Assembly (NCBI GenBank): GCA_037139415.1
Contig: JBAXGN010000030.1
Location: forward strand, 1-49,706
Length of the DNA stretch: 49,706 nucleotides
From: Verrucomicrobiota bacterium
GTDB taxonomy: Bacteria > Verrucomicrobiota > Verrucomicrobiia > Limisphaerales > Fontisphaeraceae
Direction of reading: 5' to 3'
Shown here: piece by piece, positions 2,692-49,706 of the stretch
Layout of the letters: every line of letters starts with the position of its first letter
Numbering within the stretch: the first letter of the stretch is position 1
Translations under genes and position numbers: made by a program
The notes under the pieces: generated by a model
The model's input: only the letters and a program-made list of their open reading frames with translations
The model's database searches: none
Told to the model about the DNA's origin: nothing

Positions 2692-2944
2692 AAATATTGG
2701 CCACAATTTAGCACAAGGGGTGTGACAACTTCGGTCATATTCGGGAACCACTTCCGGCCAGCAGAACTTTTTTTGAAAATTAATGATGACAGCGGGTGTC
2801 ACACCCGGTGTGCTAAGCTTGGCCTATGAGAAATACTCGACACATTGATCCCAGTGGGTTGGTGGACTGCCAATTCCGGCAAAACAGCCTTAAAAAAGGT
2901 TGTGCGAGCATGGCAGTCTGGCTGATACTGGAATAAACTCACCC
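2692..2944. promoter_or_regulatory. Divergent promoter region between the two arms of the accessory locus
   Basis: This 253-bp gap separates the leftward pseudo-ClpP trio from the rightward phosphatase trio and must hold promoters for both directions. Its main feature is a pair of inverted 18-bp arms (2710-2727 and 2797-2814). I could not assign -35/-10 boxes with confidence. The HTH protein encoded at 4931-5800 is a natural candidate to bind here. Confidence 0.5.
2710..2814. repeat. Inverted repeat, operator-like
   Basis: The arm AGCACAAGGGGTGTGACA (2710-2727) is matched by the reverse complement of 2797-2814 at 16 of 18 positions, across a 69-bp spacer. The right arm overlaps a smaller near-palindrome (GGGTGTCACACCC, 2794-2806). 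Two such sites in a divergent promoter suggest a dimeric repressor that bridges or blocks both promoters. The assignment is from sequence symmetry only. Confidence 0.6.
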
Positions 2945-3529
2945 ATGAGCACGAAGAAACCAACAGCCCAGAAGGGCTCCACGCCAACCAGTGACCGCCG
3001 CGATCTGGCGGTCGAACCGATCTTGGAGATTGTTCAGGAAACGGGAATTCAGTGGGCAATTCCTGGGGTGCTGGCCTATAGTGGGCGACCTGGGTACCCA
3101 GACTACAGCGTTTCGACACATGTAGTGGAACGATGGCTGGAGGAATTGGGGCGACAAGGCATTCGATCAGTGATTAACATGCTTTCGGAGGATGAAATGG
3201 ACGTCTATTATCGCCGCCTGGAAGCACCGCTGGCCCAGTACTATGCTGACGCGGGTTTAGAAGTACGCCAGATCTCCCACTTAGACCAGGGCGTCGTGGT
3301 TGCCAAACCGACACTGCAGGCCAGGCTGCTATCAGCCTTTGAAAGTCTGCCCAAACCGGTTCTTATCCATTGCAGTGCGGGAGTTGAGCGATCCAAGGAG
3401 GCGGCTGAGGGGATCAGCAACGCGTGCCGAACCGCCACTGGAAAACGGGGCTCAATGCAGCCCCAGCCACGTGGCCGCCGCAGTGCCAAGGCAGTTCGGG
3501 AAAAAAACAGGGTAGTCACTGGCCAATGA
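2945..3529 (+). CDS. Dual-specificity (cysteine-type) phosphatase
   Basis: A 194-residue protein with the protein tyrosine/dual-specificity phosphatase signature HCSAGVERS. C143 and R149 form the CX5R phosphate loop. Upstream, IPGVLAYSGRPGY and RSVINMLSEDE match the N-terminal strand of DSP-fold enzymes, and the Asp in ISHLDQG is the best general-acid candidate. The family hydrolyses phosphoesters on protein, nucleotide, lipid or glucan substrates, so the substrate cannot be read from sequence. The region after the loop is short and ends in a basic tail. The ATG at 2945 is preferred over an upstream in-frame ATG at 2900, because the family similarity begins after it. The phosphohistidine-domain gene starts 36 bp downstream on the same strand. 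Confidence 0.82.
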   Translation: MSTKKPTAQKGSTPTSDRRDLAVEPILEIVQETGIQWAIPGVLAYSGRPGYPDYSVSTHVVERWLEELGRQGIRSVINMLSEDEMDVYYRRLEAPLAQYYADAGLEVRQISHLDQGVVVAKPTLQARLLSAFESLPKPVLIHCSAGVERSKEAAEGISNACRTATGKRGSMQPQPRGRRSAKAVREKNRVVTGQ

Positions 3530-37825: not shown

Positions 37826-38718
37826 ACAGTTCGTCGCCCCTACAGGGCAATCACAGGTTAACTTCTTTTTGCTCCGAGTTCAAACCTTAATTTGACCTTC
37901 GTTGGTAAGCGGCAGGGCTGCCTCAAGCTCGGTTTGGTTCAAGCTGGAAGCGGCGGCTCGGGTGTCCCATGGCCGCCCAACCGCAAACGTAGGTGACGAG
38001 TCTCAAATATGGTGGCTCGGGAAATTTTGGAGTGCGGTGGCAACAGCCGGGGGAGAAAGGGGGGGATGGCGACACCGCTTTGGATTTGCGCCGTCCACTG
38101 AAGAGAACGCGGGTGTGCCTGTGGAGAAGCAAAGATGCCGGTGCGGAGGATTTTGACAGTGGGGAAATTCCCAGAGTTTCATACCCCCTCACCTCTTTCC
38201 TCTCCCTCGGGGAGAGGAGGTCTGTTCTGCGGCTGAGAGAGCAGATTGCGGGCTATTTGCAGGTCTTCGGCGTCCGGCGCAGAATCCGGAAACGGCGAGA
38301 GCGCACGAATGCCCCTTGGAATACCAACGCGCCGCGAGCGGCTTTCCCTCTCCCCAGCAACGGTGTTAGGGTGAGGGGGTACGGAACTCTCGAATTCGGA
38401 ATGCGGATTGCGGAATGCGGAATGGAGGTCCGACGACTATTAGGGCGGTAAATCATGGTTGGCGGGTTGAAATCCAAAACGGCGTCGCGGCCCCTTTGCC
38501 CCACCTTGCCGCCGTACTCCAAAAAATGCGGCTCCCGTGCTTCCTTGGGCACGGGCCAAAGTGAGGCTTCCCCGAACCAACGAATTTCGCTCTTTGCGAG
38601 TCGGGAGACTCGCGCTCCTATCCGTTGTGCCCGGCTCGATCAAGCTGCGTTGCGCACCGCTTTCATTTGTTTCACGCTTCAAGCTTGCACTGGAGCGAAA
38701 TTTCCCAAAACTAGCGAC
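37826..38718. other. Long gene-free region holding mosaic repeat copy 1
   Basis: No gene is supported over about 890 bp. The middle (37978-38531) is a mosaic repeat shared with the right end of the window. The right part (about 38560-38718) contains an arm-like word pair (GTCGGGAGACTCGCGCTCC) and leads into the GYF_2 gene start. A promoter for that gene must lie in the last about 150 bp but could not be pinned down. Confidence 0.6.
37978..38531. repeat. Mosaic intergenic repeat, copy 1
   Basis: Starts with CAACCGCAAACGTAGG and runs through TTTGGATTTGCGCCGTCCAC, a G/C hairpin (CCTCTCC...GGAGAGG around 38205-38220), GAATGCCCCTTGGAATACCA and ends with CCGCCGTACTCC. The same blocks, in the same order and roughly 85% identical by eye, form copy 2 at 49107-49681. 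It is non-coding and lies between operons. Confidence 0.8.
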
Positions 38719-39537
38719 ATGCAATGGTATTATTCCAGGAACGACACGCCGGTCGGGCCAGTGCCGGAAGATGAATTCCAAACCTTGGTGCGGAATGGCA
38801 CCATCACGCCGGATACACTGGTCTGGCGCGAGGATATGACGAGTTGGCAGCCGTTGCGCGCGACGCAGGCAACGCCGCCGGGCGAAACGATCAGCACCGC
38901 CAGCGCCACCACCGTCAAGTGCGTGGAGTGCGGCAACCAGGTCGCCCCGGAGGATGCGCTGCAATACCAGGGCTCCAGGGTGTGCGCCCGCTGCAAGCCG
39001 GTGTTTTTCCAGAAAATCAAGGAGGGCGCGGAAAACATCGGGGGGGCCGCCCTGTGGCGGTCGGGCAAGTACCTGGTGATGAAGAAAGGCGGCACCCTGC
39101 CGGATCGCTGCATCAAATGCAACGCCCCCGCCGAGGGCTATCAGCTCCGGCGCAAACTATCATGGCACAACCCGCTGTTATACGTGCTGATTTTTGTTTG
39201 CAACCCGCTGATTTATATTCTGGTAGCGGCGGTGGTCAGCAAGCGTGCCGTGGTGGGCGTTGGATTGTGTCCGGCACACCGGGAACGCCGCCGGAAACAG
39301 ATCACCATTAACCTCGGCCTTTGCGCCGCCGGCTTCTTTATGATTGGCGCGGGCATTGCCTTCAACAGTGTCGCGGTGGGCGTGCTCGGCGGGGTGGTGC
39401 TGCTTGGTTGCCTGATTTTCGCGGTCATCATTACCAACGTGGTGGCCGCCGGCAAAATTGACGACCAGTATGCGCGTATGCGCGGGGTATGCCCGGCCTA
39501 TTTGGAGTCGTTGGACAAGTGGATGGGTGGCGATTAA
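38719..39537 (+). CDS. GYF_2 (DUF4339) membrane protein with zinc ribbon
   Basis: A 272-residue protein. Residues 1-45 are a GYF_2 domain (QWYYSRNDTPVGPVP, then VWREDMTSWQPL), a peptide-binding module. A CxxC pair each side of about 70-95 (CVECGN, CARCK) and a second later (CIKCNA) suggest zinc ribbons. Three or four membrane helices follow (LLYVLIFVCNPLIYILVAA, then GFFMIGAGIAF and LLGCLIFAVIITNVVAAG). The ATG at 38719 (MQWYYS) begins the domain; the longer frame to the left lies in repeat DNA. The role is unknown. It precedes the RNA methyltransferase by 20 bp. Confidence 0.8.
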   Translation: MQWYYSRNDTPVGPVPEDEFQTLVRNGTITPDTLVWREDMTSWQPLRATQATPPGETISTASATTVKCVECGNQVAPEDALQYQGSRVCARCKPVFFQKIKEGAENIGGAALWRSGKYLVMKKGGTLPDRCIKCNAPAEGYQLRRKLSWHNPLLYVLIFVCNPLIYILVAAVVSKRAVVGVGLCPAHRERRRKQITINLGLCAAGFFMIGAGIAFNSVAVGVLGGVVLLGCLIFAVIITNVVAAGKIDDQYARMRGVCPAYLESLDKWMGGD

Positions 39538-39557
39538 CCCCTGCCAATACGTTTGCT

Positions 39558-40373
39558 ATGCTCCGCCTCCAGGTTGCCGATTCCTTCGAGCATCCCACGC
39601 TCGCGCCCTACCAGACGATGCGCGCCCAACGGGATCATCACCAACAGCGCATTTTTGTCGCCGAAGGGGAGAAGATTGTCCGCCGCCTGTTGGAAACGGA
39701 CATTGTGGTGCGCTCCGTGCTGTTGCCGCAGAAATGGCTGCCAGATATGCGTCCGCTGATTGAGGCCCGGCCCGAGGAAGTGGAAGTGTTCGTGATGGAA
39801 AAGGAAATTCTGGAAAAGCTGACCGGTTTTTCCATGTATCAGGGGTTGCTGGCGGTGGGGCGCATCCCCAACCCGGCGGACCTGGGCGAAATCCTGCGCA
39901 CCGCCCCGCGCCCGCTCTTCCTGGTGGCGGTGGATGGCCTGAGCAATTCGGAAAACATGGGGGCGCTGGTGCGCAACTGCACCGCCTTTGGCGCCCATGC
40001 GCTGCTTCTGGGGGAAACCTCCAGCCATCCCTATATGCGCCGCGCCGTGCGCAGTTCCATGGGTACCATTTTCCAGTTACCCGTGGTGGAGTGTTGCCGC
40101 CTGGAGCAAACCTTGCGCCAGTTACATGCCCAAGGAATCCGTATCGTCGCGGCGCATCCGCACACGGATCAGCGCACGCTTAGTCAGGCGAGTCTGGCCG
40201 GGGATGTTTGTGTGGTCTTCGGCAGCGAGGGCGACGGCATCTCACCAGAGGTGTTGGCAGTCTGCGATGAGACGGCGGTGGTACCCATGAGCAAGGGGGT
40301 GGATTCCTTGAACGTTGGCAGTGCCGCAGCGGTATTCTGCTACGAAGTCGCCCGGCAACGGGGTAAAGCGTGA
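39558..40373 (+). CDS. SpoU-family tRNA/rRNA 2'-O-methyltransferase
   Basis: A 271-residue SPOUT methyltransferase. An N-terminal substrate-binding domain (about 1-105, with RIFVAEGEKIVRRLL) precedes the knot domain. SpoU motif 1 is NSENMGALVRNCTAFG, motif 2 is VVFGSEGDGIS and motif 3 is VPMSKGVDSLNVGSAAAV. It methylates a ribose 2'-OH in tRNA or rRNA using SAM; the site cannot be read from sequence. The ATG at 39558 (MLRLQV) is chosen over an earlier in-frame ATG at 39489 that overlaps the previous gene. Its last 96 codons are repeated at 46233-46521 beyond the island, so its 3' end may have been delivered by that island. Confidence 0.88.
   Translation: MLRLQVADSFEHPTLAPYQTMRAQRDHHQQRIFVAEGEKIVRRLLETDIVVRSVLLPQKWLPDMRPLIEARPEEVEVFVMEKEILEKLTGFSMYQGLLAVGRIPNPADLGEILRTAPRPLFLVAVDGLSNSENMGALVRNCTAFGAHALLLGETSSHPYMRRAVRSSMGTIFQLPVVECCRLEQTLRQLHAQGIRIVAAHPHTDQRTLSQASLAGDVCVVFGSEGDGISPEVLAVCDETAVVPMSKGVDSLNVGSAAAVFCYEVARQRGKA
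40085..40373 (+). repeat. 289-bp direct repeat, left copy (3' end of the SpoU gene)
   Basis: This 3' end, from the GGTGGAGTG word to the TGA, matches 46233-46521 at all but about 10 of 289 positions. The copies are in the same orientation and exactly 6148 bp apart. Both keep the reading frame. The differences are scattered and partly synonymous, so the two look like alleles rather than a fresh copy. Confidence 0.9.
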
Positions 40374-40466: not shown

Positions 40467-41126
40467 CTATGGTTTCACTTGGCTTCTTCCCGTTAAGAGG
40501 GCTGCGGTATTTGTGAGTTTCCTCTCCCGCGCCCGGTCATACGGAGTGCGACCTTGGCAGTCAGCAACCTCTGGACGCGCCCCATTGCTCAACAGTAGCC
40601 CGATCATTCCATCGAAACCGCGCGACGCGGCATTTGCTAAAGGGGTCCGTCCTCCCCGATTTGTGGTATTGACATCCGCTCCGCGCCGCAGGAGGTCTTC
40701 AGCAATAGCTATGCGCCCCCCGATCGCCGCTTGCAACAACGCAGTATTCCCATCCAAGTCCTGGCGGTCGAGGTGTGCACCACGTGCCAGAAGAAAATCA
40801 TAAACCTCCTTATGCCCCCAGAAGGCAGCCAGCATAAGAGCTGTTTGCCCGTGTTCGGTGCCTGCCTCCAAGTCCGCCCCGGCCAGCACAATTGCATGCG
40901 TTGACTCGAGGTCGCCACGCGCTGCGGCTATTACGACAAGCGGAACCCCGTTGGTATCCCGAACGTCGCAGTTGCGGCGAGAAACGAGTCTGCTGACAGA
41001 AGCGTGGTCCCCTGCCCACGCGGCAGCGACAAGGTTCCGCTCAGTTTGAATGTTCCACCACAAAACTCCAAGCGTGCCCAAGCTCACTGCTACCACAATT
41101 ATCAGAAGGATTTTTCGATACACCAT
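40467..41126 (-). CDS. Membrane-anchored ankyrin-repeat protein
   Basis: A 219-residue protein. An N-terminal membrane helix (LLIIVVAVSLGTLGVLWW, about 7-24) leads to five to six ankyrin repeats (from about 33: NLVAAAWAGDHASV, then DTNGVPLVVIAAARGDLES, HGQTALMLAAFWGHKEV, DGNTALLQAAIGGRIAI and GGRTPLANAASRGFDG). Ankyrin proteins bind other proteins. Some lie next to polymorphic toxins as immunity factors, which is a possible role here. It is the last leftward gene of the island, 35 bp after the small membrane protein. Confidence 0.82.
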   Translation of the reverse strand: MVYRKILLIIVVAVSLGTLGVLWWNIQTERNLVAAAWAGDHASVSRLVSRRNCDVRDTNGVPLVVIAAARGDLESTHAIVLAGADLEAGTEHGQTALMLAAFWGHKEVYDFLLARGAHLDRQDLDGNTALLQAAIGGRIAIAEDLLRRGADVNTTNRGGRTPLANAASRGFDGMIGLLLSNGARPEVADCQGRTPYDRARERKLTNTAALLTGRSQVKP

Positions 41127-41161: not shown

Positions 41162-41659
41162 TCAAAATAGAACACCATTGCCCGGCGTTTGTTCGAAACT
41201 GACAGGCATTGGCAATCCATTCAGGCGTTTGCTAAGTCCAGGGAATAATTTCGACACATTTGTGGCTTCGATCAGAGTTACTCGATAAACTTTCCCGTCA
41301 CGAACATCAATCGCCACCTCCAATTTACCGCCATCGTCCGACCGGTATTCACAAACGAAACCGTGTTGATATGGAATACCTACTCCACCCAACTTAACAC
41401 CATGGTTGCGAATGGTTTCTGCAAGCCCACGCATTCGCAAAAGTAGTGGTGGGGAAGTGTGTGTCAAGTCGTTGCGGGTTTGACGGACAAACTGGCAATC
41501 CTTCGTGATAAAAAAATCTTGTACCGCCTTTAACACTTGGTCCGACGCGGGGTACCGTTGAATTGATCGGTATTCCTGAGTGAAGAAACATACTACCCAA
41601 CTGATCACTAAGGCACACCCCACAAGCGCTAATTTGAAGAAGGTACTCCTCCGTTTCAT
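41162..41659 (-). CDS. Small membrane or lipoprotein, unrecognised
   Basis: A 165-residue protein I do not recognise. The N-terminus has a hydrophobic segment (FFKLALVGCALVISWVVCFF). LVGC could be a lipobox, but the hydrophobic run continues past it, so a membrane helix is at least as likely. The rest is alpha-beta with a basic N-terminal and a beta-hairpin part (VAIDVRDGKVYRVTLI). It lies 18 bp after the first mini-RHS gene on the same strand, the position expected for an immunity partner. Confidence 0.65.
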   Translation of the reverse strand: MKRRSTFFKLALVGCALVISWVVCFFTQEYRSIQRYPASDQVLKAVQDFFITKDCQFVRQTRNDLTHTSPPLLLRMRGLAETIRNHGVKLGGVGIPYQHGFVCEYRSDDGGKLEVAIDVRDGKVYRVTLIEATNVSKLFPGLSKRLNGLPMPVSFEQTPGNGVLF

Positions 41660-41677: not shown

Positions 41678-42496
41678 TTATTTGAAAACCTCTATTGGTT
41701 TCTGGAGAATAGACCCCTTTCCGGTTCCACCGCTTTCGGAATAAATAAGAGTAATGCGATGTTTACCTTCAAATGCGTTATCTGCATCTTCAGCCCTGAC
41801 CGCCCATGCAACAGACAACCGGTATTCCCATTTATCGCCTTCATCGACCAAATCTCTAATCATGTCGCCTGCAACGATTTTTAAATTCGTGATTTTCTCC
41901 ACTTGAGAAGGGCCATCAACTGTACCAGGGGCTTTCCATGCAAGCTGTTCGTTTAACATCCAAACACCACCTTTTTTTCTCTTATACCATGAGAAATCAG
42001 TTATTGTTTGAGATATTTTGAACTTATCCATGGTGTCCATAGCTACGCACTCCCGATTCACCACGTATTCAAACTTGTAGCCGACAGCCGTACGGGCTGG
42101 CCGTGTGACTTTTACTTGTTGAAAACTACCCCACCCAGAATTGGCAGTGTACACATAGTGCTCCGGGACCAATTGGTGCTTAAATCCCAAATCCCCAGGA
42201 AGAATGACATCATAATAGTCATCCCAAGTGTTGACCCTGCTAAGGTAGGTGCTGTCTGAAATTTCAGCCGTGCCTGAGTGCCTGATCTCTAAGGACAGAA
42301 TCCGCTCCCCAAAAGCATCAATCTCATTTACTGGTGAGTTCTGCGTGAATGCGTACAGGTTTAAACCGCCAGATTCTTCAATGGTATCCCTAGACAACCA
42401 TCGCCCCGTGCTGGGGCTGTACCACCGCATGGCTTGGGCTTCGGTAACGATGGTGCAAACAATCACAGTAAGCACGAACTTCAACGTGGCATTCAT
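41678..42496 (-). CDS. Secreted mini-RHS protein 1 (signal peptide, one RHS core, variable C-terminus)
   Basis: A 272-residue protein. A signal peptide (MNATLKFVLTVIVCTIVTEA, with cleavage after AQA at 22) is joined directly to a single RHS-associated core motif (MRWYSPSTGRWLSRD, then NLYAFTQNSPVNEIDAFG, residues 23-64). Full RHS proteins have thousands of residues of YD-repeat shell before this point; here the shell is missing. The last about 205 residues are beta-rich and unrecognised. In RHS proteins the region after this core is the variable toxin domain, so this one may be an effector. Its first 60 residues closely match those of mini-RHS protein 2. The C-terminal parts are unrelated. 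Confidence 0.75.
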   Translation of the reverse strand: MNATLKFVLTVIVCTIVTEAQAMRWYSPSTGRWLSRDTIEESGGLNLYAFTQNSPVNEIDAFGERILSLEIRHSGTAEISDSTYLSRVNTWDDYYDVILPGDLGFKHQLVPEHYVYTANSGWGSFQQVKVTRPARTAVGYKFEYVVNRECVAMDTMDKFKISQTITDFSWYKRKKGGVWMLNEQLAWKAPGTVDGPSQVEKITNLKIVAGDMIRDLVDEGDKWEYRLSVAWAVRAEDADNAFEGKHRITLIYSESGGTGKGSILQKPIEVFK

Positions 42497-42645
42497 AGGC
42501 TCTATTTCTTTATCATTAGGGCCTTTATCTCAAATCCGTCGGGCACGGTCAATGGCATTCGCGGAGAAACTGAAGAGTTGGCGGCTGGCGCTTCTAGTGG
42601 GCTTTGGCTTGGCACGGCAGGGATTATGTCAATAAGTGGTAGCGA
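42386..42645. repeat. Internal island direct repeat, left copy
   Basis: About 260 bp covering the 5' end of mini-RHS gene 1 and the remnant before it. It matches 43896-44158 (5' end of mini-RHS gene 2 and the 3' end of the transglutaminase-like gene) at roughly 80% by eye, with a 3-bp indel. Same orientation. This is the footprint of cassette duplication. Confidence 0.8.
42502..42640 (-). pseudogene. Remnant 3' end of the transglutaminase-like gene
   Basis: Reads leftward as a 45-codon open stretch (IIPAVPSQSP, then SVSPRMPLTVPDGFE, ending MIKK and a TAG) that closely matches the last about 45 residues of the 715-residue protein encoded at 44015-46162 (IIPAAPSQSP, SVSPRMPLTVPVGFE, MIKR). No upstream part of that gene is present here. 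It ends 5 bp before the mini-RHS 1 ATG. Confidence 0.85.
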
Positions 42646-42664
42646 CTTATCAAGGGCCGTCAAC

Positions 42665-43120
42665 CTATTTCCTATTTTCTTTTGTTAAATAGACGTCATC
42701 TCCGAACCCGTTTTCATTAACTCCATTTGAACCGTTCGACCAGACAACCACATCAAAACCCGCCTCCGTAAGCGCAGTCGGCCCGAATTTGGAAAGTAAG
42801 TTCGTCTTAAACTCAACATTGAAGCGACGCCCATATCCATCCGACAAAATTTTCTTGTCAATGATTTTAGGATCAAACCCAAGCGTTTGCGAATTATTTG
42901 ACAATAAAACCAACAAACCTTTTTGAAGATTGGTTTCTGTGGAATTTTGAAGCAACCGACCAATATTGGTATGGTTTTCGGACTCCAAAATACGCAGGGC
43001 GTGATAAATATTCTTGAGCCTGTTCTGCGTTTGTGCTTTCGGCGCCACAGTTGTTGGTGGTGAGCATGAAACAAGCCCAACAAACAACATAGAAACGAGG
43101 AATGACCGAAATCTCCACAT
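42665..43120 (-). CDS. Small lipoprotein with a pseudopilin-like C-terminus
   Basis: A 151-residue protein. The N-terminus is a lipoprotein signal with the lipobox LVSC (Cys 19). The C-terminal half has DGYGRRFNVEF, then VVVWSNGSNGVNENGFGDDV, which resembles the calcium-binding end of type II secretion pseudopilins (GspG-like). There is no pilin N-terminal helix, so it is not a pseudopilin itself. It starts 16 bp after the stop of mini-RHS gene 2 and is its likely immunity or export partner. Function is inferred only from position. Confidence 0.68.
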   Translation of the reverse strand: MWRFRSFLVSMLFVGLVSCSPPTTVAPKAQTQNRLKNIYHALRILESENHTNIGRLLQNSTETNLQKGLLVLLSNNSQTLGFDPKIIDKKILSDGYGRRFNVEFKTNLLSKFGPTALTEAGFDVVVWSNGSNGVNENGFGDDVYLTKENRK

Positions 43121-43136
43121 ATAATTCCAAAAGGAA

Positions 43137-44018
43137 TCATCGGTTCCCCAATGAATACGGGTAGTTGTTCTTTCCAGGCGCAGAGGTCCAAAGAAAAACG
43201 TCGTTTATTGTATTGACTGAACCCTCGTAGCCGATAAAACGCCCCTTTGTTGAAACGTTTGACTCCCACGAGTTATATCGGTATTTAGCTCTTGGCACAG
43301 GAACCAAGTCCGCGCTATAGCAAGCTTTAAGAACCAAGAAAGCAATACCATGAGGAGTGTAGCGATCAGGCCCCAACCCGCTCATATCTTCGCCAAGATG
43401 AGAATATGTGTTAATAATGGCACCAGGGCCCCCATGGCCTATGAACATGTATCCGTAAATATTCGCATCGCCAAGGTGGGTTGTGATATCATTATCAGTT
43501 ACTCCAACATCGCTTACGACACGATATCCGTTGTTTTCCCAGTCAATTTTGGATTGGTTGGCAGCGGACATCCAGATACTGATAATAGACCAAGGAACCT
43601 GATCCATAACTTTTTGATTTCCAGAGTCGATAAAAATTGTGTTAGGAATAGAATATCGTTTGCAAGGTTCGGGCCTTGCGTCTGCTGGCTGCAACCACTT
43701 GTCATAATCTGAATAATCGAAGCGAATTAAATTGGCTAAATCCTGAAATGTGTCGGATGTGCTTGTTGCATAGGCAACCGTCCTTGGGTTTCCTTTTCTT
43801 GTGACAACCCATTTTAGCCCAAGAAAGTCTGTTTTGTTTACAGGATCATTTTGAAGTATTGCATAAATATTTGGTCCGTCCATTTCCCCAATCGGATCCC
43901 TGGATAACCATCGCCCCGTGCTGGGACTGTACCACCGCATGGCTTGGGCTTCAGTAACAAAGGCAGAGGCAGCAATTACTGCAAGCATGAATTTCAAAAC
44001 GGCATTCATAGGCTTCAT
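43137..44018 (-). CDS. Secreted mini-RHS protein 2 with a caspase-clan-like C-terminal domain
   Basis: A 293-residue protein. Signal peptide and RHS core (MRWYSPSTGRWLSRDPIGE, then NIYAILQNDPVNKTDFLG) match mini-RHS protein 1. The C-terminal domain (about 70-293) begins with a LysM-like word (SDTFQDLANLI). It carries YGYMFIGHGG, with H195, and AFLVLKACYSA, with C233. A hydrophobic strand ending in HG and a second ending in Ala-Cys, 38 residues apart, is the clan CD (caspase/CHAT) peptidase pattern. It may therefore be a secreted peptidase effector. The ATG at 44018 overlaps the transglutaminase gene stop (ATGA). The homologous start in protein 1 corresponds to the ATG at 44009, which may be the real one. 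Confidence 0.75.
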   Translation of the reverse strand: MKPMNAVLKFMLAVIAASAFVTEAQAMRWYSPSTGRWLSRDPIGEMDGPNIYAILQNDPVNKTDFLGLKWVVTRKGNPRTVAYATSTSDTFQDLANLIRFDYSDYDKWLQPADARPEPCKRYSIPNTIFIDSGNQKVMDQVPWSIISIWMSAANQSKIDWENNGYRVVSDVGVTDNDITTHLGDANIYGYMFIGHGGPGAIINTYSHLGEDMSGLGPDRYTPHGIAFLVLKACYSADLVPVPRAKYRYNSWESNVSTKGRFIGYEGSVNTINDVFLWTSAPGKNNYPYSLGNR

Positions 44019-44158
44019 CTTTTTATCATTGGAAGTTTTGTCTCAAATCCGACGGGCACGGTCAATGGCATTCTCGGAGAAACTGACGGAATGATGGCTG
44101 GTGCTCCTGGTGGGCTTTGGCTTGGCGCGGCAGGGATGATGTCAATATGTAGTGGCGG
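43896..44158. repeat. Internal island direct repeat, right copy
   Basis: Partner of the repeat at 42386-42645, covering the 5' end of mini-RHS gene 2 and the 3' end of the transglutaminase-like gene. The gene is intact here, so this is probably the source of the other copy. Confidence 0.8.
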
Positions 44159-46162
44159 TTGCATCAGCGGTATTTGGTCCAGGGTGTGTCGTCTGGCTTG
44201 AATCACTTGAAGCGCGGACTCTTTTTGGCGTTCATCCGACTCAAACCGCCGGACTTCATCCATTACCGCAGTTTCTTTTCCAAAGGTTATAGATCTCGTT
44301 CGTGATACAATCCGTTTCTGTAATTCAGGGGAAAGTTCCCGGTTGCGGTAACTCCATGGGATACTGTTCGCGGGAATGCCACTCTCTCGGGCAAAATCCG
44401 CCAATTTCAGGTGGTCCTTTGGCTGCCATTCCGGCGGCAAAAAGGGGTGATGGCCGGAATTGAACAACGATTCGCTGGCTTGCATATTCCGCAGGTGGAG
44501 TTCTTCCGCATAATATAGGTGCATTTCTTCAACCATTTCCTGCTCGTTATCCAACTTGCGCAGCCGTTGCTGGAGTTCGAGCGGAAAACCATTCCAAAAA
44601 TACTCGGCCGGAATTCGTTCCTGCTGGATCGCCATGCGCCTGGCCTGGGTTGGCCCAGAGGCAACCGCAGACTGGTTACCCGCCTGAGAGTCCTTCTGCC
44701 GGGCCAACATGCTGGTTTCGTAATGCTTCCACAGTTCAGTCAAGATGGACTGCTCGTTATCCAGCTTGGCAGCGCCAATACGAGCCCATGATGAGGACGG
44801 AATCTGCCTGTTTTCAAACGGGGGCAGGAATTCCTCCGGGATGACCAACTCTTTTCCCGAAGGCAAGGTGACGCGCAAAACAAGGATTGGTGTTGGCGAT
44901 GGTGGCGGCAGCATCACAATATTCGTCCGTGGAGCATCCGTAGGCTCGATCATTCGCCTATGGTAGTCTGCCAAGTCACGCCGTAAATCGCCGACAGCCT
45001 GTTCCATGGCGGGCAAGTCCGTGCCCTGACTCATGCGCATGTGGACCTGCACTTTACGATTTTGGAATTGGGCAAATTCCGGGCCGGGCGGCACATACAT
45101 TCCATCCACTTCCGTCCAAAGTTGGTCCCATTTGCCAGCGTTCTTCGAGTTTTGCGCCCGTTCGAGGCAGGCTTGAATAGTTCGCCGGGAAAGCGGTGTA
45201 TCGGGCAAATACCGTCCGGCGTTCGCAATGGCCTCGGCCTCTTCCGCATACCGTTCCATGTTGCGCAAACACCCGGCGCGCGCAAAAAGAAACGCCCCCA
45301 ACATTTCCCGCCCAGTCATGGGCCGCAGCCAGCCCAGGTCCCGGATTTGTTCCTCGGTGCTTGGGAAAGGTCCTTTCCGATATTCTTCATCGGTTGGGGT
45401 GGTGAATCCCCGATTCTCGGTGGCCTCAACATTGAGGTGACCGCCATCCTCTTGCTCATAGCGGACATATAGGTGGTACTTGGTGGCGGCAAGGTTCACG
45501 GGATACCCTAAACGCCGGGCGATGGCCGTGTAGAGCACGGGCATGGAGGCGCAAGTCCCGAACCGCTCGCCCGCCAGCAGCCCGTGAATGAAAACATTCT
45601 TGGAATTGGCGTAATTGGCCTGCTGGTCAGTCCGCTTTCCATGCACCCACGGTATTTCAAGTTTAGGATTGTAACGCATACCGTAATCCTCTGCGAGCAC
45701 GGTGCCCAGCATTCCCATCCGGTAATAAGCCAGGGAATTTTTATGCTCTTCCGGGTGTTCTGTAAAACGATGCTCGTTGCGTTTGGTTTCCCATTCCACC
45801 TGCCTGGCAAGGGAGTTCAGCCGTTCGATATATTTACTAACGTCCAAGTCCTCCGAACCGCGCAGCCCCTCCGCGCAAAGCAAGTTCATGACCGCGATAT
45901 CCACGCCGTCAAGTTGTTCGGGAGGAATTTGCAGTAACTCTCGTAATGATTGTGGTTGATGGCTGGCCAATGATGGTGGCTTCGGCACGGTGTTTGCAGC
46001 TAGCTGAATTCTATCCCACGGGCCAAGCAGCAACACAACGGCAGCGATCAGTAGAAAAAACAGCACAGCCGGAAGAAGCATTGATCGGTGCTTTGACTGC
46101 CGTTTTTGGCCTGATCGTCCGAGGTTAGCCACCGGGCGATTATTGTTGTGACTCTTTTCCAT
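44015..46162 (-). CDS. Membrane-anchored transglutaminase-like protein
   Basis: A 715-residue protein. A basic cytoplasmic start and one membrane helix (LLPAVLFFLLIAAVVLLLG, about 29-47) lead to a transglutaminase-like domain (about 70-270). The Cys-His pair is visible as GTCASMPVLY (C204) and ATKYHLYVRY (H230), with an acidic third residue near 245 (NVEATE). The remainder is helical and Pro/Gln-rich, with paired segments around ELWKHYE and EEMHLYYAEE. Such folds act as cysteine peptidases or cross-linkers on the outer side of the membrane. Its stop overlaps the ATG of mini-RHS gene 2 (ATGA), so it may process, anchor or secrete that protein. Confidence 0.75.
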   Translation of the reverse strand: MEKSHNNNRPVANLGRSGQKRQSKHRSMLLPAVLFFLLIAAVVLLLGPWDRIQLAANTVPKPPSLASHQPQSLRELLQIPPEQLDGVDIAVMNLLCAEGLRGSEDLDVSKYIERLNSLARQVEWETKRNEHRFTEHPEEHKNSLAYYRMGMLGTVLAEDYGMRYNPKLEIPWVHGKRTDQQANYANSKNVFIHGLLAGERFGTCASMPVLYTAIARRLGYPVNLAATKYHLYVRYEQEDGGHLNVEATENRGFTTPTDEEYRKGPFPSTEEQIRDLGWLRPMTGREMLGAFLFARAGCLRNMERYAEEAEAIANAGRYLPDTPLSRRTIQACLERAQNSKNAGKWDQLWTEVDGMYVPPGPEFAQFQNRKVQVHMRMSQGTDLPAMEQAVGDLRRDLADYHRRMIEPTDAPRTNIVMLPPPSPTPILVLRVTLPSGKELVIPEEFLPPFENRQIPSSSWARIGAAKLDNEQSILTELWKHYETSMLARQKDSQAGNQSAVASGPTQARRMAIQQERIPAEYFWNGFPLELQQRLRKLDNEQEMVEEMHLYYAEELHLRNMQASESLFNSGHHPFLPPEWQPKDHLKLADFARESGIPANSIPWSYRNRELSPELQKRIVSRTRSITFGKETAVMDEVRRFESDERQKESALQVIQARRHTLDQIPLMQPPLHIDIIPAAPSQSPPGAPAIIPSVSPRMPLTVPVGFETKLPMIKR

Positions 46163-46232: not shown

Positions 46233-46521
46233 GGTGGAGTGTTGCCGCCTGGAGCAAACCTTGCGCCAATTGCGTGCCCAAGGAATCCGTATCGTCGCAG
46301 CGCATCCGCACACGGATCAGCGCACGCTTAGTCAGGCGAGTCTGGCCGGGGATGTTTGTGTGGTCTTCGGCAGCGAGGGCGACGGCATCTCACCAGAGGT
46401 GTTGGCAGTCTGCGATGAGACGGCGGTGGTACCCATGAGCAAGGGGGTGGATTCCTTGAACGTTGGCAGTGCCGCCGCGGTATTCTGCTACGAAGTCGCC
46501 CGGCAACGGGGACGCGCCTGA
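46233..46521 (+). pseudogene. Displaced 3' end of the SpoU methyltransferase gene
   Basis: Encodes 95 residues (VECCRLEQTLRQLRAQG to VARQRGRA) nearly identical to the end of the intact SpoU gene at 39558-40373. It contains SpoU motifs 2 and 3 but lacks the substrate domain and motif 1. No promoter or start suggests it is made. It marks the right edge of the 5.9-kb island. Confidence 0.88.
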
Positions 46522-48869: not shown

Positions 48870-49706
48870 AATAGGGATCAGTTTTTGAGGTTGTTGGTTG
48901 GATGGAGGATGACAACCAGACCGAAGCGGTTCCGCGCGCGCGGCAAGCGACGTTGCCGGGGCGGACAGCATTCCATTGCATGAACGGGTGTTGTCATGTG
49001 TCGCCGGCAAACTGGCATAAATCTGCCCAAAAGCAATACTTAACTTTAACATTAATAAGATTTATGCTTGGAGAATGAATGCATTAGCGCCGGCAACCCT
49101 TGGGACCAACCGCAAACGTAGGTAACGAGCAAATCAATCTCAAATATGGTGGCGCGGGGGATTTTGGAGTGCGGTGGCAGAATCCGGGGGTAACAGGGGC
49201 GGATGACGACACCGCTTTGGATTTGCGCCGTCCACGGGAGCGCGCGCGGGTGTACCTGAGGAGACCTAAATGGAGTGGCGCGGGAGATTTTGACAGCGGG
49301 GGAATTCCCAGAGTTTCGTACCCCCTCACCTCTTTCCTCTCCCTTGGGGAGAGGAGGTCTGTTCTGCGGCTGAGGGAGTGGATGATGGGCTGTTTGCAGG
49401 TCTTTGGCGTCCAACGCAGAATCCGGAAGCGGCGAGAGCGCACGAATGCCCCTTGGAATACCAACGCGCCGCGAGCGGCTTTCCCTCTCCCCAGCAACGG
49501 GTGAGGGGGTGAGACTTCCCCGAACAACCGACTTTCGCTCTTTGAACCCATGAACCTGGAAGTGAAGGTTCGTGGGGAGGGAAACGGCGGCAATTCCGCA
49601 TTCCGCATTCCGCATTCCGCATTCCAAAGCGGCGTCGCGGCCCCTTCACCTCACCTTGCCGCCGTACTCCAAAAATGTCGGCGCGTGCATTTGCTCTGCG
49701 CCGCAG
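48870..49706. other. Gene-free right end holding mosaic repeat copy 2
   Basis: No gene is supported. The hemerythrin promoter should lie in about 48870-49080, but boxes could not be assigned. From 49107 on, the sequence is the mosaic repeat. Confidence 0.6.
49107..49681. repeat. Mosaic intergenic repeat, copy 2
   Basis: Shares with copy 1 (37978-38531) the opening CAACCGCAAACGTAGG, the TTTGGATTTGCGCCGTCCAC block, the CCTCTCCC...GGGGAGAGG hairpin (about 49336-49352) and the closing CCGCCGTACTCC. An extra GACTTCCCCGAAC block (49510-49545) sits inside here but right of the repeat in copy 1 (about 38571). A run of GCATTCC heptamers lies at 49597-49625. The element is a patchwork of smaller modules. 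Confidence 0.8.

Follow-up and report, generated by a model that had tools for sequence, protein, structure and literature searches.

Orphan C-terminal cassettes are a general notion for rhs and contact-dependent inhibition (CDI) genes, and they are among the systems with which the locus described here can be compared. This locus lies in a stretch of 49,706 nt (the window; contig JBAXGN010000030.1 of the Verrucomicrobiota assembly GCA_037139415.1), where a gene for a transglutaminase-like protein (TG) is followed by two genes, here called mini-RHS, that encode a signal peptide joined straight to an RHS-associated core and a variable C-terminus. The Rhs/TcC YD-repeat toxins carry a core with two Asp motifs before a variable C-terminus; for Rhs1 of P. 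laumondii, passages of the published work (PMC8636562) place the C-terminal autocleavage site after two DPLGL motifs 17 residues apart, and the cleavage requires the Asp of the second motif. Transglutaminase domains have also been found N-terminal to RHS repeats. In the toxins treated in parts of Zhang et al. 2012 (PMC3482391), which run from a signal peptide or transmembrane helix through a transglutaminase fold and RHS to a variable toxin, these domains are fused, have lost their catalytic residues and were proposed to serve as anchors. The passages of a 2023 classification that deal with Transglut_core2 and menin (PMC10318531) call the function of the former unknown and describe human menin as a scaffold protein without the catalytic Cys.

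The mini-RHS genes resemble the YD-repeat toxins in their core with two Asp residues, their variable C-terminus and a small gene downstream, but they lack the YD shell, have a Sec-type signal directly ahead of the core and are accompanied by a separate TG gene, and no PAAR, EagR, VgrG or Tc parts occur in the genes described. The succession of signal peptide or transmembrane helix, transglutaminase fold, RHS and variable toxin is common to the toxins of Zhang et al., except that here TG is a separate gene with its triad intact and there is no RHS array. As in the orphan cassette arrays of genomes G001 and G002 (G and L numbers denote genomes and loci), units with changing ends stand in tandem, but each mini-RHS unit here has a start and a signal peptide of its own, in an array that opens with TG. 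TG is like the Transglut_core2 or menin-type papain-like proteins in matching PF13369 and in a predicted fold nearest human menin, and unlike menin in being bacterial, exported by prediction and linked to RHS, with no sequence match to menin seen. It is the combination that is new: the YD shell is lacking, export would be of the plain Sec type, the core would stand at the mature N-terminus, and there is a dedicated TG with an intact triad. No paper describing the TG and mini-RHS pair was found among titles and openings in the open-licence PMC literature, and we know of no description of it. Judged from sequence, the arrangement is probably a minimal, Sec-exported version of a polymorphic effector system, spread across the Planctomycetes-Verrucomicrobia-Chlamydiae (PVC) bacteria, in which TG handles the RHS core as a tag.

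The genes concerned occupy the following positions in the window:

44015..46162, minus strand: TG, transglutaminase-like protein (PF13369, Transglut_core2), 715 aa, with an N-terminal hydrophobic segment.
43137..44018, minus strand: mini-RHS1, 293 aa; signal peptide 43941-44018, RHS core 43815-43940, C-terminus 43137-43814.
42665..43120, minus strand: small gene 1, candidate immunity protein, 151 aa, with the lipobox LVSC (pattern match).
42502..42644, minus strand: remnant of a TG 3' end immediately upstream of mini-RHS2, probably left by insertion of a cassette.
41678..42496, minus strand: mini-RHS2, 272 aa; signal peptide 42431-42496, RHS core 42305-42430, C-terminus 41678-42304.
41162..41659, minus strand: small gene 2, candidate immunity protein, 165 aa, with an N-terminal hydrophobic segment.

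Transcription runs along the minus strand in the order TG, mini-RHS1, small gene 1, mini-RHS2, small gene 2 and an ankyrin-repeat gene, and the TG stop and the mini-RHS1 start share 4 nt (ATGA). Both mini-RHS proteins match the RHS-associated core of NCBIfam (TIGR03696, cut-off 32.5) with 48.1 and 47.2 bits, respectively, over model positions 34-76 and 35-75 of 76, that is, in its C-terminal half only. In each, the core directly follows an N-terminal hydrophobic stretch, recognised by eye, that ends in AQA, and the part of the core common to both covers about 42 residues after the signal peptide. No YD-repeat region precedes it, so that the absence of the YD shell, asserted in an earlier note on this DNA, holds. 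That note had also described two tandem genes with nearly the same first 60 residues and unrelated C-terminal domains. The tandem genes, the shared N-terminus and the unrelated ends were found, with no significant match between the two C-termini, while "nearly the same" was slightly overstated, 43 of 64 aligned N-terminal residues (67%) being identical (dN 0.24, dS 1.24). The note missed the upstream TG gene and the TG 3' end inside the shared block. In fact, the duplicated DNA begins within TG, about 145 nt ahead of its 3' end, and continues through the signal peptide and the core (185 nt at 82% and 146 nt at 72% identity); since it begins there, mini-RHS2 is preceded by a relic of a TG end. 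This relic suggests that the cassette of mini-RHS2 once stood beside a TG and was later displaced by a newer one.

The host genome (7.9 Mb in 378 contigs) carries two further TG loci, with the order TG, mini-RHS, small gene, mini-RHS and small genes on contig 2 and TG, mini-RHS and small gene on contig 89, and in both the TG and mini-RHS genes overlap by 4 nt as in the window. On contig 2 the N-termini of the pair have 52 of 66 residues in common (dN 0.20, dS 1.05), and the ends are unrelated. The two pairs, of the window and of contig 2, thus have dN/dS of about 0.2, a value derived from few codons and from dS close to saturation. Full-length RHS genes encoding about 2000 aa are present in this genome as well.

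A TG profile search of 387 genomes of the phylum returned 15 places in 11 genomes, 13 of them strong (E<=4e-20). Two strong matches, in G240, run off their contigs; of the remaining 11, 10 have a mini-RHS as the immediate next gene, and in the eleventh (G284) a mini-RHS and a small gene directly precede TG, after which only about 314 nt remain. The two weak matches (G351, G128) have no RHS core behind them. Furthermore, when GTDB genomes were scanned with an alignment of ten TG, 125 relatives emerged, of which the best 80 were studied (two pairs of identical records, L079/L121 and L083/L145, being counted once each). These loci belong mostly to Verrucomicrobia and Planctomycetes, with Lentisphaerae/Kiritimatiellaeota metagenome-assembled genomes (MAGs) and a few MAGs labelled otherwise. 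For the next-gene test, a core profile was built solely from seven full-length RHS of the host genome. The gene after TG scored as an RHS core in 68 of the 80 loci, or in 68 of 75 testable ones, as five of the twelve misses have less than 200 nt or no sequence behind TG. The same core was found upstream in 0/66, on the antisense strand in 0/73 and 3 kb downstream in 1/53, the single control match being a second mini-RHS (L105). The reverse test, in which a profile of signal peptide plus core was searched in 288 genomes, gave at least nine matches that include the signal peptide (profile start <=10), four in the host genome and one each in G211, G230, G284, G240 and G034. TG is adjacent or in the same array for eight of the nine listed, while the G240 match lies 68 nt from its contig end. 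A class undescribed in verrucomicrobia, as the earlier note proposed, is supported by the sequence marks given here and below, and we infer that it is one of effectors; its range is broader than was thought, as it extends to Planctomycetes and to Lentisphaerae/Kiritimatiellaeota MAGs. In one planctomycete locus (L159), three signal-peptide mini-RHS units and two further RHS-core open reading frames (ORFs) surround a single TG.

The window TG matches PF13369 with 25.8 bits as a whole and 28 bits in its core (cut-off 23.5), and the same family was matched by 41 of 47 TG cores. The putative catalytic residues are retained, Cys204 and His230 in 81/81 and Glu/Asp246 in 80/80 proteins of a set from which the TG of L109, with an in-frame stop, was left out. 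A hydrophobic N-terminal stretch was found in 62 of 76 TG, and its presence agrees with that in the neighbouring mini-RHS: in 65 loci both partners have it in 50, neither in 6, and mixed cases number 4 and 5 (Fisher p 0.0009). The TG core was modelled at a pLDDT (predicted local distance difference test) of 93.5 and a pTM (predicted template modelling score) of 0.92. Among solved structures, VIA-align placed human menin closest (Z 13.5, 3.8-4.2 A, 212-214 residues), followed by S. pyogenes TglA (Z 9.5) and PNGase (Z 9.4), in a ranking that is a second look at Foldseek's own PDB list. Foldseek itself returned nothing from the PDB at E<=0.001 for this model, with a best E of 0.13. The menin likeness is to be taken as a fold resemblance, and with care, because for helical proteins a Z of up to about 13 may reflect no more than a common arrangement. 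PF05053 (menin) was not among the profile matches of the TG core at E<=0.01, and comparison of the TG sequence with the PDB gave chance-level matches only (TPR-like, viral glycoprotein and others).

In the 80 loci, 66 of the 68 mini-RHS are complete, with a median length of 277.5 aa and the core starting from median residue 27, and 22 of the 68 overlap TG by exactly 4 nt. The N-terminus is hydrophobic in 58/68, and in 48 of these 58 a loose signal-peptidase motif lies exactly 6 residues before the GRW anchor of the core, vs 0 of 16 non-exported RHS cores. Because of this cleavage-like motif, the last RHS core strand (Y-x-P-x-x-GRW-x-x-RDP) probably forms the start of the mature protein; the window pair forms, by eye, a subtype with two extra residues (AQA-MRWYSPST-GRW). 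TIGR03696 was matched at E<=0.01 by all 75 aligned mini-RHS (78 without the truncated or very short members L130, L163 and L166), and the only invariant columns are Asp41, Asp64 and Gly67. Part of this conservation is by choice, because most members were admitted with the RHS-core profile; the linkage to TG is independent of that admission. The spacing of Asp41 and Asp64 (23 by our own count, vs 22) resembles that of P. laumondii Rhs1, and the pair may have a role in cleavage, although the shell that encloses the cleavage site in full-length Rhs toxins is absent.

The C-termini are hypervariable. Clustering them and listing the gene behind each, as the earlier note had suggested, placed 75 C-termini (>=40 aa, of 78) in 58 clusters. 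With array members included, 85 C-termini (84 true, as L117_5797 is a false unit, namely a TG gene) fell into 64 clusters, and 35 of 3570 pairs were related vs 3240 of 3240 TG pairs, far from C-termini that stay invariant across genomes. Pairs within a locus with N-termini at least 60% identical numbered 24, of which 23 are true, in 15 loci. Two L105 pairs have no C-terminus to compare, and in 20 of the 21 others the C-termini had no match at 1e-3, the remaining pair matching over 21 aa; the polymorphic pattern recognised in the earlier note is therefore borne out. Pfam (E<=0.01) recognised TGL in three and Aspzincin M35 in two of the 75, TNT, Ntox44, SLT, PT-HINT, Tle1-like, phospholipase A2 and VWA7_N in one each, and further single Hint_2, Intein_splicing and weak KH matches, the great majority having no match. 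In several further C-termini lipase or metallopeptidase motifs were noticed by eye. The C-terminus of mini-RHS1 contains a LysM-like part and a GHG...AC caspase-like His/Cys pattern, both by eye. Its family occurs also in L095, L099, L115 and L121, and an RHS ORF at the contig 29 edge of the same genome ends in a related sequence (L029; E 1e-17). His and Cys are invariant in their GHG and AC contexts in six aligned members, so that the family appears caspase-like in pattern. The structure model of mini-RHS1 (pLDDT 52, core part <50) was used solely for the order of the LysM-like part.

Small downstream genes stand behind both window mini-RHS, as the earlier note had reported, and behind 59 of 78 overall (56 within 100 nt) under a rule of an ORF of >=60 aa starting -30 to +250 nt from the mini-RHS stop. 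They often carry export signals. A lipobox was found in 17/56 vs 12/451 other ORFs of the loci (Fisher 1e-10), and a hydrophobic N-terminus in 45/56 vs 126/451 (Fisher 3e-14), against a background picked mechanically (longest non-overlapping, >=100 aa) in which some ORFs are not real genes; background ORFs below 260 aa gave 8/233 and 64/233. Single Pfam matches were to ankyrin, HEAT, pentapeptide, WG-repeat, DUF1559 and signal peptidase. In L084 the gene behind the mini-RHS (2906-3436; locus by eye) is an apparent signal peptidase (Peptidase_S26) and not the usual small lipoprotein. Movement of a whole cassette was seen between L095 and L096 of one MAG, where the cargo is 78% identical over 209 aa and the small genes are 44% identical, while the N-termini resemble those of their own locus neighbours (71% and 72%) and have 13 of 39 residues in common with each other. 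By this comparison, cargo and small gene moved together as one cassette between two N-termini. The small genes of L095 and L121 gave no match, and the similarity of small gene 1 to its counterpart after the related C-terminus in L029 (E 0.007 over 23 aa) was not counted. A constant N-terminus, a hypervariable C-terminus and cassette recombination, the mark of polymorphic toxins, are all present.

From linkage, architecture, conservation, variability and one case of cassette movement, all read from the genes themselves, we infer toxicity, immunity, the TG reaction, signal cleavage, a target and a route out of the cell, and a mechanism can be proposed as follows. Signal peptidase would cut just ahead of the core, so that the mature protein would start with the last RHS core strand. 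TG, anchored in the inner membrane or exported across it, would recognise the constant RHS tag and act on it, by cleavage or by a transpeptidation that attaches or releases the protein; because TG would act on a constant tag, one enzyme could serve any cargo. In addition, the protein may cut itself downstream of the tag by means of the two conserved Asp residues of the core. The variable C-terminus would be an enzyme against periplasmic or extracellular targets of competitors or prey, from which the small lipoprotein or membrane protein would shield the producer. New cargo would enter as a cassette of C-terminus and small gene, recombining at the block of TG end, signal peptide and core, and would displace the old cargo downstream. 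A more specific proposal is made only tentatively, as a serious but somewhat doubtful possibility: the RHS core may be no relic but an N-terminal tag for sorting and processing, which signal peptidase would uncover and on which a dedicated TG-like enzyme of menin fold would act, in a two-gene export or display device with which PVC bacteria would freely swap effector enzymes without a YD cage or a known injection machine.

Several observations weigh against an effector system. This reading offers no account of how a Sec product would get out of the cell or into a rival. A downstream gene under the rule was missing behind 19 of 78 mini-RHS, and no named Imm family of Pfam was found in the 54 scanned of 56 downstream genes (L163 and L080 being left out). 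Downstream genes were related in only 3 of 46 related-cargo pairs, compared with 0 of 3953 other pairs after removal of six artefacts, in which the "downstream gene" was the next mini-RHS by coordinates or a false unit was involved. The signal-peptide-like start is missing in 10/68 mini-RHS, and export was called by hydrophobicity rules rather than by a trained predictor. A Pfam scan of both window mini-RHS gave nothing above cut-off. Finally, in 7 of 75 cases no scoring core follows TG (L112, L137, L141, L157, L168, L169, L170), the next genes of L168 and L169 being RHS-like by eye.

The same data can be read as exoenzyme sorting rather than warfare, in which TG and the RHS tag would anchor or release a varying set of secreted hydrolases that digest prey or serve nutrition, with the small genes as partner lipoproteins, inhibitors of self-digestion or chaperones. 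Several C-termini match or, by eye, resemble peptidases, lipases and transglycosylases that would act outside the cytoplasm, and the small gene is not in all loci; the TNT, Ntox44 and PT-HINT matches (one member each), the tandem arrays with a constant N-terminus and unrelated ends, and downstream genes with export signals, a few of them co-moved with the cargo as expected of toxin-immunity cassettes, speak for effectors instead and leave this reading unlikely. Less likely again is a TG that is a tether and no maturation enzyme, a peptide-binding scaffold holding mini-RHS at the cell surface. Such anchoring was proposed, in the parts of Zhang et al. 2012 on inactive transglutaminase domains of RHS toxins (PMC3482391), and the nearest predicted fold is that of menin, a scaffold by the account in PMC10318531, but the domains of Zhang et al. 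had lost their catalytic residues, whereas the TG triad is intact throughout. That mini-RHS are degenerate orphan C-terminal cassettes left by recombined full-length RHS genes, with a signal peptide by chance, is very improbable: such arrays are present in the related genomes G001 and G002 and the C-terminus of mini-RHS1 is related to the contig-edge RHS ORF, but the G001/G002 orphans keep longer pre-core remnants and have no signal peptide, most mini-RHS have signal peptide and core at a fixed spacing, two pairs have the low dN/dS given above, and mini-RHS stand behind TG across many families. The RHS ORFs of G001 and G002 differ in kind, and this candidate was rejected.

The locus shows the RHS core apart from the RHS shell: what these bacteria retain is a 40-residue core directly after a signal peptide, together with changing cargo and a partner enzyme. 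The role of the core itself can thus be tested in a protein of about 270 residues. One group of Transglut_core2 enzymes, bacterial and exported, gains a genetic context, in a family whose function is called unknown in the passages cited (PMC10318531). The C-termini suggest that environmental PVC bacteria harbour a large, so far unstudied stock of exoenzyme or toxin domains.

The remaining features of the window island are these:

40467..41126, minus strand: ankyrin-repeat protein, the final island gene, with an N-terminal hydrophobic segment by eye.
40085..40363, no strand assigned: direct repeat of 279 nt, left copy, which is the 3' end of the SpoU rRNA methylase gene.
46233..46511, no strand assigned: direct repeat of 279 nt, right copy, 98% identical to the left copy.

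The ankyrin-repeat gene is possibly a further gene of immunity type. The 279-nt repeat brackets the entire island, and the SpoU rRNA methylase gene at 39489-40373 is intact; the island looks like a recent insertion with duplication of the SpoU gene end. A second direct repeat of 300 nt at 85% identity was seen in the window at 38001-38300 and 49138-49437. In G001, thirteen RHS-core matches lie within 33 kb (C1, about 2085-2118 kb, L058-L060) and form an orphan RHS C-terminal cassette array, mostly with broken core frames and without signal peptides. Another exported, truncated RHS type was found in the host genome (L026 7143-10686 and L028 13565-14818), with the signal peptide MSRFCYMLF..., a partial RHS and 417-529 aa, behind full-length RHS genes and with no TG alongside.

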